Shown here: positions 6,719 to 24,627 of the stretch, piece by piece
How the letters are laid out: the number at the start of each line of letters is the position of its first letter
Position numbering within the stretch: position 1 is the stretch's first letter
Origin: a virus
IMG/VR virus record: IMGVR_UViG_3300051212_001400
Location: 1 to 27,275 of that record
DNA length: 27,275 nt
Direction: 5' to 3' (one strand)
Position numbers and translations under genes: made by a program
Notes under the pieces: generated by a model
Database searches by the model: none
What the model was told of the DNA's origin: nothing
The model's input: only the letters and a program-made list of their open reading frames with translations

Positions 6719-6739
6719 TATCAGGTAATTATCAGGTAA
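6719..6739 (+). repeat. TATCAGGTAA direct repeat, possible operator
   Basis: TATCAGGTAA occurs at 6719-6728 and 6730-6739, with starts 11 bases apart (about one helical turn), directly upstream of the P2 -35. A near copy, TGTCAGGTAA, lies at 7173-7182 just after the first ribozyme. Same-face spacing suggests cooperative protein binding; the binding protein is unknown. Confidence 0.5.
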
Positions 6740-6743
6740 ATAG

Positions 6744-6773
6744 TTGCATAAATGATATTACTCGTGATATACT
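6744..6773 (+). promoter_or_regulatory. sigma70-like promoter P2
   Basis: TTGCAT (6744-6749), 18-base spacer, TATACT (6768-6773), in the most AT-rich stretch of the window. Start of transcription is expected near 6780, giving a leader of about 50 bases before ATG 6829. This is probably the main early promoter, driving the ribozyme-bearing operon. Confidence 0.65.
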
Positions 6774-6828: not shown

Positions 6829-7104
6829 ATGAACAAGCCAATCCGCTACAGCAACAGCCAACAGAAAAAGCTCGACCACCTGTTCTTTTGTCACGCCGCT
6901 GCAATTCAGACCAGCAACACCGCCCGCGCCGAAGCGTTGATGGTCGAGATTGATGCACTCCGCGCCAAAGTCGCCGCCAACAAGGCTCGCGCCGCTGCCA
7001 GCGCCGAGGCGCGCCGCCAAGCCAGTCGCGAGAAGTGGCTCCAAGAGCAAATGGAGATTGCCGCCGCCGCCGAAGCGCAGCGCCAAGCAAGCCGCAGCAA
7101 GTAA
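6829..7104 (+). CDS. early small helical protein, coiled coil
   Basis: First gene behind promoter P2; 91 residues, unrecognised. From about residue 30 it is Ala/Glu/Arg/Gln-rich and almost certainly one or two long helices (EALMVEIDALRAKVAANKAR, then ASAEARRQASREKW), with a repeated phrase RRQASR/QRQASR at about 62-67 and 84-89. This suggests a dimeric coiled coil with a basic surface, perhaps binding nucleic acid or a host protein. AAAGGGAACG lies upstream of the ATG. Its TAA stop donates its last A to stem II of hammerhead ribozyme 1, so translation termination and ribozyme folding share the same bases. Confidence 0.7.
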   Translation: MNKPIRYSNSQQKKLDHLFFCHAAAIQTSNTARAEALMVEIDALRAKVAANKARAAASAEARRQASREKWLQEQMEIAAAAEAQRQASRSK

Positions 7105-7168
7105 GACGAAACTGGCGCCTTGATCTTCTCGGTGCCAGTCTGGCGGTGATGCCGCCACTGATGAGTCT
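7104..7168 (+). ncRNA. hammerhead ribozyme 1 (type II)
   Basis: All core elements of a hammerhead are present in order. Stem II 5' strand AGAC is 7104-7107, GAAA is 7108-7111. Stem III pairs 7112-7119 with 7131-7138 (8 bp, one G-U, 11-base loop). G7138 U7139 C7140 is the cleavage triplet. Stem I pairs TGGCGG 7141-7146 with CCGCCA 7152-7157 around loop TGATG. CTGATGA is 7158-7164 and stem II 3' strand GTCT is 7165-7168. The A15.1-U16.1, G10.1-C11.1 and C3-G8 pairs all hold. Ends open in stem II, hence type II. Predicted cleavage is between 7140 and 7141. A second copy with a covarying stem III makes chance very unlikely. Confidence 0.93.
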
Positions 7169-7230
7169 GGAATGTCAGGTAATGCACGGTGACCGAATCC
7201 GTGGTTGTGGCAAAGAAAGCAATCAGTGAG

Positions 7231-7306
7231 TCCCAGGGGTGACTGACGGTACACAGGGAAATACGCTGTGCGTTGCTCGCTTAGTACGCAGCGGTCACCA
7301 CTGGGA
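7231..7306 (+). other. long imperfect hairpin between ribozyme 1 and next gene
   Basis: Arms 7231-7242 and 7295-7306 pair over 12 positions with one G-A mismatch. Inside, CGCTG (7264-7268) can pair with CAGCG (7289-7293). Just upstream, CGGTGACCG (7187-7195) is a dyad whose right part is also complementary to CGGTCACC at 7292-7299, so alternative pairings exist. The stretch 7169-7335 has no gene; it acts as leader for the next one and looks like a structured regulatory RNA of unknown type. Confidence 0.45.
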
Positions 7307-7335
7307 ACATTGGCCAAACGACGAAAGGAACTGAG

Positions 7336-7539
7336 ATGACCGACACCACACAACGTCCCGCCGACCGCAATGAGCAACGCTACCTCGCCTCGATGTTCTG
7401 CTGGAACATGGCACTCGATGCAGGCACCAAGGCGCTACGCTGCAGCGAGGCAGGCGACGACGAAGGCGCCAAGCGCTGGGCGATGACAGTGCATCACTAC
7501 CTGAAGAACTACGCGCGGTTGCAGTACGGCAACGAGTAA
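7336..7539 (+). CDS. small early protein inside the ribozyme-bounded RNA
   Basis: A 67-residue unrecognised protein, helical and Ala/Arg/Tyr-rich (GTKALRCSEAGDDEGAKRWA), with two cysteines and no membrane segment. The start is set by the leader GAAAGGAACTGAG immediately before ATG; the same 16 bases including ATG recur before the next gene at 7619. The stop TAA (7537-7539) gives its last A to stem II of ribozyme 2, exactly as in the upstream gene. It is therefore framed by two ribozymes and would be the only protein encoded on the released RNA. It shows no similarity I can see to the 91-residue protein upstream. Confidence 0.72.
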   Translation: MTDTTQRPADRNEQRYLASMFCWNMALDAGTKALRCSEAGDDEGAKRWAMTVHHYLKNYARLQYGNE

Positions 7540-7602
7540 GACGAAACCGACGGGGCGTGCGATGCCCCACGGTCTGGCGGTGATGCCGCCACTGATGAGT
7601 CT
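7539..7602 (+). ncRNA. hammerhead ribozyme 2 (type II)
   Basis: Stem II AGAC 7539-7542 pairs with GTCT 7599-7602. GAAA is 7543-7546. Stem III pairs 7547-7549 with 7570-7572 and, beyond a small internal loop (7550-7551 opposite 7569), 7552-7558 with 7562-7568 around a 3-base loop. G7572 U7573 C7574 is the cleavage triplet. Stem I is TGGCGG 7575-7580 with CCGCCA 7586-7591. CTGATGA is 7592-7598. The 31 bases 7572-7602 and the 12 bases 7536-7547 are identical to ribozyme 1, while stem III is different in sequence but paired: covariation that supports function. Predicted cleavage is between 7574 and 7575. Confidence 0.93.
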
Positions 7603-7618: not shown

Positions 7619-7900
7619 ATGGAAGGCAAGTACAACGCACACTTTCGGGAGTCATGGGGTATCGATGACCAAACCATGGTCGTCATCGAGTACACCAAGG
7701 CGCACGGGTCGCACACGTGGCACATCCACGCCATGCTCGATGTCGGTCATGCGGGCGTCGATATCCTGCGTACGCAGGCGTCGTCACGTAACGCCGTGGA
7801 ATTCGACGCCATGCTGCGGTTCGCACGCCAAGAAGTCGAAGCGCGGCTCAGCGCCATTGCGGCGCGCGTCGCACGTACAGGGGGCAACCATGTGGAGTGA
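7619..7900 (+). CDS. hypothetical early protein
   Basis: ATG 7619 is chosen because the leader GAAAGGAACTGAG precedes it, as for the gene at 7336; an in-frame ATG at 7562 lies inside ribozyme 2 and is rejected. The 93-residue product is unrecognised. The N-terminal half looks alpha/beta (MVVIEYTKAHGSHTWHIHAMLDVGHAG), with several histidines; the C-terminal half is one long helix (AVEFDAMLRFARQEVEARLSAIAARVA). After cleavage at 7574/7575 its mRNA would begin with the 5'-OH stem I hairpin of ribozyme 2, only 44 bases before the start codon, so ribozyme cleavage would define its leader. Confidence 0.7.
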   Translation: MEGKYNAHFRESWGIDDQTMVVIEYTKAHGSHTWHIHAMLDVGHAGVDILRTQASSRNAVEFDAMLRFARQEVEARLSAIAARVARTGGNHVE

Positions 7901-18544: not shown

Positions 18545-18568
18545 GGGGTGTACAAAAAGCCCTTGACA
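18545..18568 (+). promoter_or_regulatory. 24-bp repeat, copy 1, with TTGACA
   Basis: An exact match to 24536-24559, running from GGGG-TGTACA through AAAAAGCCC to TTGACA (18563-18568). It sits in the 54-base gap before the amidase gene, the start of the lysis/late operon. TTGACA suggests a -35, but only a weak -10 (TATGGA at 18-base spacing) follows, so an activator or another binding protein is likely. A 24-bp exact repeat in a 27-kb genome is not expected by chance. Confidence 0.6.
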
Positions 18569-18598
18569 GCATGGCCACAATAAAACTATGGAGGCACT

Positions 18599-23545: not shown

Positions 23546-24627
23546 TGCCCTATCACATCGAAGAGAGCGCTGGCCAATACTGCGTGTACAAAGACGGCGA
23601 CAACACGCCGATGCAGTGCTACGACAACGAAGCCGACGCCGATGCGTACCTCACGGCGCTCACCATCGCCACCGCAGACGAGGTCAAGGCAGAGTCGTTC
23701 ACACCGCCAGCCACCGTGGCCGACAATGCTCGCATGGCACTCGAGGTCAGGGCATCGAAGCCACCGTCACAGCGTGGCATGACGAGCATCGGCATTGCCC
23801 GCGCATCGCAGTTGGCCAATCGACGACCGGTCAGCATCGACACCATCGAGCGCATGGTGGCGTACTTCGACCGCCACGAGGTGGACAAAGACGGTGCGAC
23901 GTGGAGTGAGCAGGGCAAGGGGTGGCAAGCGTGGATGGGCTGGGGTGGTGACGAAGGCAGGGCATGGGCAAATCAGATTATGAAGGAGTATGAAATGAGT
24001 GAGACCAAAGAATCGTACAAAGCAAGCCGTCGTCACAGCGAAGCGGACATGAAACTCATCCGCAGCGCTCGACGCATGGCCAGTGAAATCGTGAAGTCGA
24101 TGCACTTCCTCGGCGACGACGGTGAAGATGCCATGGTCATGGACGAAGAGCCCAAGGCGATCAAGGCTATCGAGATGGGCGCCGAGTTCAACACCCGCCA
24201 GCGCATGATGGTGTCGTCACTTGTCGAAGTGACGCACGAAGCCGGTAAGTTTGACACAGGCGTCGGCGCCAACGGGGCGCACTACATGCCTGCCGAGCAG
24301 AACCCCTTCGTCGCACAGGGCATTGCCTGTGAGCACTGCTTTTTCTACCAGCCAACGATACTTGAGGGCATGGGACAGTGCGCCATCGTCGAGGGCATGG
24401 TCGAAGAGTACGGTGTGTGTAAGCTGTGGATAATTCCCGAAGACACCATCATCATGGAGACCGTCGAAGCCGAAGCCGAGATGGTCGAAGATGCCGAAGA
24501 CGACGACATGATCGAAGAGGGCATGGCATCCGAGGGGGGTGTACAAAAAGCCCTTGACAATAGCGCAACAATGGAAGTAAGCGATGCGGCCAAGATGCTG
24601 GCACGTCGATTGCTGGGGAGAAACTGA
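23545..24627 (+). CDS. head-region protein with Trp-rich and Cys-rich domains
   Basis: A 360-residue protein sharing the last base of the preceding gene. Residues about 55-150 contain a segment I associate with phage head/protease-region proteins (VADNARMALEVRASKPP, VSIDTIERMVAYFDRHE, GWQAWMGWGGDEGRAWAN). A Cys cluster follows near 262-293 (CEHC, GQC, GVCKLW), similar to high-potential iron-sulfur-like motifs, possibly metal binding. An acidic low-complexity part (AEAEMVEDAEDDDMIEEG) resembles scaffolding. It lies directly before the protease-capsid gene, so a scaffold or capsid maturation role is plausible. Copy 2 of the 24-bp repeat lies in its 3' end. Confidence 0.62.
   Translation: MPYHIEESAGQYCVYKDGDNTPMQCYDNEADADAYLTALTIATADEVKAESFTPPATVADNARMALEVRASKPPSQRGMTSIGIARASQLANRRPVSIDTIERMVAYFDRHEVDKDGATWSEQGKGWQAWMGWGGDEGRAWANQIMKEYEMSETKESYKASRRHSEADMKLIRSARRMASEIVKSMHFLGDDGEDAMVMDEEPKAIKAIEMGAEFNTRQRMMVSSLVEVTHEAGKFDTGVGANGAHYMPAEQNPFVAQGIACEHCFFYQPTILEGMGQCAIVEGMVEEYGVCKLWIIPEDTIIMETVEAEAEMVEDAEDDDMIEEGMASEGGVQKALDNSATMEVSDAAKMLARRLLGRN
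24536..24559 (+). promoter_or_regulatory. 24-bp repeat, copy 2, with TTGACA
   Basis: An exact copy of 18545-18568, here inside the coding sequence (encoding GVQKALD), 68 bases before the protease-capsid gene. TTGACA is 24554-24559; no good -10 follows at normal spacing, but a similar ACAAT occurs 9-13 bases after TTGACA in both copies. It could be an internal promoter for the capsid gene or a site for another DNA-binding protein. Confidence 0.55.

Follow-up and report, generated by a model that had tools for sequence, protein, structure and literature searches.

What do hammerhead ribozymes do for the phages that carry them? Reviews treat the roles of bacterial and phage hammerheads as an open question (PMC6155905, PMC10085705), and a locus that carries two of them around one small gene poses that question in concrete form. 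In the window analyzed here (a whole virus record of 27,275 bp), two complete type II hammerheads were located on the plus strand at positions 7104 to 7168 and 7539 to 7602, the coordinates given in a preliminary description of this DNA. The CUGAUGA and GAAA core, three stems, and an NUH cleavage triplet (GUC) were present in both copies, and the predicted cleavage sites lie 434 nt apart, as that description had also claimed. Its observation that the copies share one part and differ in another held as well: the 3' parts are identical over 31 nt (7138 to 7168 and 7572 to 7602), and stem III differs in sequence with its pairing kept. In both copies stems I and III are closed and stem II is open, the type II arrangement; core, stem order, cleavage triplet, covariation in relatives, and the best Rfam family all agree on this assignment. 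Coordinates are collected in Table 1.

Table 1. Genes, ribozyme elements, and predicted RNA product at the tandem hammerhead locus (window coordinates).
Feature	Position	Strand	Remarks
Gene A	6829..7104	+	91 aa; UAA stop 7102-7104 overlaps ribozyme 1; conserved in relative L014
Hammerhead ribozyme 1	7103..7168	+	Type II; predicted cut between 7140 and 7141
Ribozyme 1 stem II	7104-7107/7165-7168	+	
Ribozyme 1 GAA	7108-7110	+	
Ribozyme 1 stem III	7111-7119/7131-7139	+	
Ribozyme 1 C17	7140	+	
Predicted double-cut product	7141..7574	+	434 nt; inferred from hammerhead chemistry
Ribozyme 1 stem I	7141-7146/7152-7157	+	Loop UGAUG
Ribozyme 1 CUGAUGA	7158-7164	+	
Gene B leader	7169..7335	+	167 nt; long imperfect hairpin, z -2.4; absent from L014
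Gene B	7336..7539	+	67 aa; UAA stop 7537-7539 overlaps ribozyme 2
Hammerhead ribozyme 2	7538..7602	+	Type II; predicted cut between 7574 and 7575
Ribozyme 2 stem II	7539-7542/7599-7602	+	
Ribozyme 2 C17	7574	+	
Ribozyme 2 stem I hairpin	7575-7591	+	
Ribozyme 2 CUGAUGA	7592-7598	+	
Gene C	7619..7900	+	93 aa; ribosome-binding site GAAAGGAAC; start 16 nt after ribozyme 2

Several lines of evidence indicate that the two elements are authentic. When each was folded in isolation, the minimum-energy structure consisted of the three expected stems, with z-scores of -3.8 (copy 1) and -2.8 (copy 2). With 40-nt flanks, competing pairings were predicted to reduce the probability of stem II in copy 2 to 0.02, so that folding would have to be co-transcriptional. 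A structural motif scan of the window returned exactly two matches, the two ribozymes, and the same scan returned none in 150 dinucleotide-shuffled windows. The covariance-model check that had been proposed for these elements was borne out in part: RF02276 was the top Rfam match, aligned over its full length, and neither copy matched at the gathering score (23.0 and 20.5 bits against 37, a curation cut-off rather than a structural feature). We attribute these low scores to a subclass bias of the Rfam model, since only 1 of 25 elements reached the cut-off across 20 loci found with a GAC pattern, compared with 49 hits across 20 GGC-pattern loci. A covariance model of our own, built from 16 ribozymes including the window's two, recovered 24 copies in 13 records, with at most 5 per record; four of the 24 came from a single record, near-identical copies at both its ends included. 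These relatives keep all three stems by compensatory change, with 97% of cells paired versus 79.5% in shuffles and a covariation score of 0.43 versus 0.11. Sliding the stem partners by 1 to 3 columns abolished the covariation signal.

The surrounding genes place the ribozymes in a tailed-phage setting. Terminase, portal, and major head protein genes in the window confirm the phage setting, and the record carries a 124-bp terminal repeat (96% identity). The tail genes are followed first by genes A, B, and C, with HNH and primase/helicase genes further downstream; the "early operon" suggested previously is plausible, judged from gene position. No Pfam or PHROGs family matched the three genes, and no DNA similar to the ribozyme region was found in named phages. 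The closest large terminases were only ~31% identical (archaeal psiM2), and therefore no host was assigned. Possible regulatory sequences were also seen. An operator-like ATCAGGTAAT/ATCAGGTAAA is repeated upstream of gene A (6720-6739), with a near copy, GTCAGGTAAT, just past ribozyme 1 (7174-7183). An extended -10-like TGATATACT was judged by eye at 6765-6773, and a 44-nt repeat (82% identical; 18545-18588 and 24536-24579; GGGGTGTACAAAAAGCCCTTGACA...) is a possible phage promoter pair.

The closest relative, L014 (~92% identical DNA around gene C), has a different gene order, B'-A-ribozyme-C. Its single ribozyme resembles the window's second, and B', the homologue of gene B, lies upstream of gene A and carries no ribozyme. 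Therefore, the window's A-ribozyme-B-ribozyme-C order arose, or was lost, by exchange. The sequence AGTAAGACGAAAC, common to both, is one possible junction. Judging from this one genome pair, gene units bounded by ribozymes could move, each keeping a defined 3' end.

A pattern search of IMG/VR returned 14 stretches with related ribozymes, and wider patterns matched well over 200 viral-contig stretches, plus 11 from bacterial genomes. One of the loci comes from Xanthomonas phage Xp15. The placement counts that follow are samples, comprising viral elements among the matches listed plus a few bacterial-genome loci; the search patterns, which called for a GUC triplet and for G-C as the first pair of stem II, skew the elements sampled, and stop codons of long ORFs were called mechanically rather than from curated genes. 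This survey overturned the earlier impression that two hammerheads in tandem are unusual: at least two were present on one strand in 88 of 216 hammerhead-bearing loci, and tandem type II spacings ranged from 202 to 3380 nt (among the matches listed). Tandem copies around single genes, which had been called unusual, are common in phages, and a 2011 study (PMC3088659) already describes tandem type II hammerheads flanking phage genes. Several other arrangements were observed. Each of three short contigs (L161, L198, and L212) holds as many as about nine type II hammerheads at the Rfam threshold, and phages L006 (330-, 2145+, 2665+) and L015/L008 carry hammerheads in both divergent transcription units. 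The contigs L274 (labelled Phycicoccus jejuensis) and L276 (labelled Streptomyces iakyrus) carry hammerhead triplets whose internal spacing matches one another's and that of phage L013/L010, reflecting either a shared phage or assembly cross-contamination.

Compared with the type II hammerheads of bacteria, phages, and prophages (RF02276; PMC3088659), the window copies are alike in core, in the GUC cleavage triplet, in having stems I and III closed and stem II open, and in tandem placement around genes in phage DNA. They differ in scoring below the family cut-off, in having no loop I-tail pseudoknot, and in combining a short stem I and UGAUG loop with bases common to the upstream stop codon. 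The same study showed in vitro cleavage for tandem hammerheads of phages and prophages, and gene-length processing was proposed there for prophage arrays. Like the hammerheads around ardA in an Agrobacterium tumefaciens prophage, the window copies would place several ribozymes on one transcript and yield gene-length pieces. Cleavage of the ardA array was seen in vitro and in E. coli. The genes differ, and the accessible text describes no stop-codon placement.

Both window ribozymes begin at the UAA stop codon of the upstream gene. This feature was absent from the preliminary description, and it is this anatomy that is new. The last base of UAA closes stem II (A7104 pairs with U7168, and A7539 with U7602), and the middle base (A7103 and A7538) is the near-invariant A just 5' of stem II. 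By its predicted pairing, then, the stop codon belongs to the functional ribozyme, with its last base forming the fourth stem II base pair. We observed the same placement widely. Among the matches listed, 390 non-redundant type II elements were examined, and in 63% of them a long upstream ORF had its stop 0 to 8 nt 5' of C11.1 (the innermost base of stem II), compared with 4.5% for random positions in the same contigs. In 21% of these 390 elements, versus 0.55% at random, the last base of the stop fell exactly at the fourth stem II position, a count in which offsets -1 and -2 are constrained by the search pattern and -3 is free. Compact genomes favor short gaps, which is a point against function, yet placement was tighter than uniform within the gap (112 observed versus 44 expected, among the matches listed).

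Stop codon identity was skewed. Among the matches listed, UAG accounted for 36 of 61 overlapping stops but 37 of 253 further upstream (p = 8e-12), the bias predicted if pairing of its G in stem II is required. For elements with a short stem I whose stem II is of the GAC or GTC kind, the tally of overlapping stops among the matches listed was UAG 30, UAA 5, and UGA 0. An A was found directly 5' of stem II in 218 of 224 elements with a 16- to 19-nt stem I, and in 96% of short-stem-I elements whose ribozyme does not overlap a stop (both among the matches listed). The A is therefore a requirement of the ribozyme; that UAA and UAG supply it, and UGA does not, is incidental.

Two type II subclasses, split by stem I length, were seen among the matches listed. 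Stem I hairpins of 16 to 19 nt carry a U-N-A-N-G-like loop together with the A directly 5' of stem II, and longer hairpins, most of them in the GGC stem II class, have a mixed base at that position; the window copies belong to the short-stem-I subclass. A signal of a pseudoknot between loop I and the tail, a feature common but not universal in RF02276, was found in 57% of the GGC class versus 41% with tails swapped (among the matches listed). In the GAC class it was rejected (16% versus 14% with tails swapped, among the matches listed), and no 4-bp match was seen by eye in the window copies. We suggest that the middle A of the stop codon probably contacts the UGAUG loop of stem I, replacing the pseudoknot of the other subclass; we infer that this tertiary contact would resemble those of other hammerheads. 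The data also suggest that the subclass with short stem I, U-N-A loop, and stop-codon A is mostly missed at the Rfam cut-off, and phage hammerheads would thus be under-counted.

The three hammerhead permutations leave different hairpins on their products. The stem III hairpin stays on the upstream product in types I and II, type III leaving an open strand, and the stem I hairpin stays on the downstream product in types II and III but not in type I. Among the intercistronic matches listed, a stop codon overlapped or lay within 8 nt of the ribozyme 5' end in 71 of 105 type I and 214 of 325 type II elements but in only 3 of 41 type III elements (p = 2e-13). We rejected the idea that only type II is stop-anchored, given that type I is anchored too; about one-third of intercistronic type I and II elements among the matches listed are not anchored. 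In type III, a free-standing hairpin fills the space between stop codon and ribozyme. Of these spacers, 86% fold at -5 kcal/mol or below, with a mean z of -2.2 versus dinucleotide shuffles; the values were 46% and -0.6 for type II spacers of 12 to 70 nt, and 15 to 25% of the spacers after ribozymes of the three types reached that energy (all among the matches listed). At type III loci such as L285, L437, L465, and L600, the element between stop and hammerhead is a free-standing GC hairpin, often GGGGCTTCGGCCCC.

Between stop and cut, a hairpin of -6 kcal/mol or below was predicted in 93/93 type I, 314/314 type II, and 30/36 type III elements among the matches listed. Types I and II carry this hairpin by construction, so type III is the informative test, and it rests on 36 to 43 elements. 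Between cut and ribosome-binding site, the corresponding counts were 26/93, 313/314, and 36/36 (among the matches listed); types II and III carry the downstream hairpin by construction, and the low type I value is therefore the informative one. From these predicted folds, what all three types preserve is a hairpin behind the upstream stop codon. A 5' hairpin on the downstream mRNA is not supported as a general purpose, because type I goes without it. In type III, however, the hairpin lies directly against the ribozyme and not against the stop codon, and it may instead have a role in ribozyme folding. A literature search, mostly of papers outside subscription and including the accessible part of PMC3088659, found neither the stop-codon rule nor the type III hairpin; these two are new, and the ribozyme type was already known.

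The ribozyme anatomy, covariation, stop-codon sharing, and hairpin-at-3'-end pattern read from these sequences are consistent with the hypothesis that intercistronic hammerheads make mRNA 3' ends, splitting the operon into gene-length messages by predicted cleavage. We give this hypothesis a probability of about 0.58. In line with it, cleavage is known for other tandem phage and prophage hammerheads (PMC3088659), and engineered insulators whose ribozyme leaves a hairpin at the RNA end increase both mRNA and protein (PMC6206723). Each ribozyme would cut the polycistronic phage mRNA immediately 3' of a stop codon. For genes A and B alike, the 5' product would end in UAA-GACGAA-stem III hairpin with a 2',3'-cyclic phosphate, leaving the stop codon intact with a stable hairpin at once 3' of it (-16.5 and -16.0 kcal/mol for the predicted window products) that should block 3' exonucleases. 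The 3' product would begin with a 5'-OH and the stem I hairpin. From 5' to 3', the 434-nt product is thus predicted to consist of 5'-OH, stem I hairpin, leader, gene B, stop codon, stem III hairpin, and 2',3'-cyclic phosphate. Such gene-length messages would be translated and decay separately without transcription ending. A ribosome terminating at UAA would cover the 5' strand of the ribozyme, so cutting may wait for its departure. For the wider proposal, that all three permutations are mRNA 3'-end makers and that termination and folding compete where the stop codon lies within the catalytic fold (the short-stem-I subclass), we consider the odds even.

Alternatively, the ribozymes could mainly serve the downstream gene, freeing its ribosome-binding site and giving the message a 5'-OH hairpin end as RiboJ does. 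The downstream ribosome-binding site and start are found at a median distance of 24 nt (among the matches listed), the new 5' end carries the stem I hairpin in types II and III, and RiboJ, likewise a self-cleaving element in bacterial mRNA (self-cleavage being predicted in the window) that leaves a terminal hairpin, raises downstream expression (PMC6206723). RiboJ was engineered into a 5' leader behind a promoter; the window copies sit at a stop codon between two genes. Against this reading, type I has no 5' hairpin and none has been added, type III has an added hairpin on the upstream side, and a 167-nt leader separates ribozyme 1 from gene B. We consider this explanation unlikely.

Slightly less likely still is that the elements are neutral or selfish repeats tolerating intergenic sites, with stop adjacency a product of compaction and the type III hairpin serving only to insulate folding. 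The 31-nt repeat shared by the window copies, the variable genes around the ribozymes, the displacement of gene B, and the position of the type III hairpin against the ribozyme fit such an origin. It accords poorly with covarying stems and an intact core across distant phages, with the excess of UAG at sites where stem II is closed by its G, and with the tightness of placement within the gap. Ligation of the 434-nt RNA into a retrozyme-like circle carrying gene B is very improbable: two cis cuts would give the right ends (5'-OH and cyclic phosphate) and circular RNAs of plant and animal retrozymes are bounded by paired hammerheads, but most type II loci among the matches listed have a single copy per strand, spacings are non-uniform across phages, L014 has one ribozyme, no motif copy beyond the two was found in the window record, unlike the multi-copy unit of a retrozyme, and the 2011 study (PMC3088659) sought circular products and detected neither these nor spliced ones.

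If hammerheads do form mRNA 3' ends, an upstream message would end in a stop codon followed by a hairpin, supplied by stem III in types I and II and by an additional element in type III. Ribosomal termination would then contend with ribozyme folding for the same nucleotides (UAG or UAA) in the short-stem-I subclass. The placement rule offers a specific and cheap test of function, in which translatable mRNAs would carry a hairpin directly behind the stop while transcription continues. Stop-codon sharing may thus be a clue to what phage hammerheads do.
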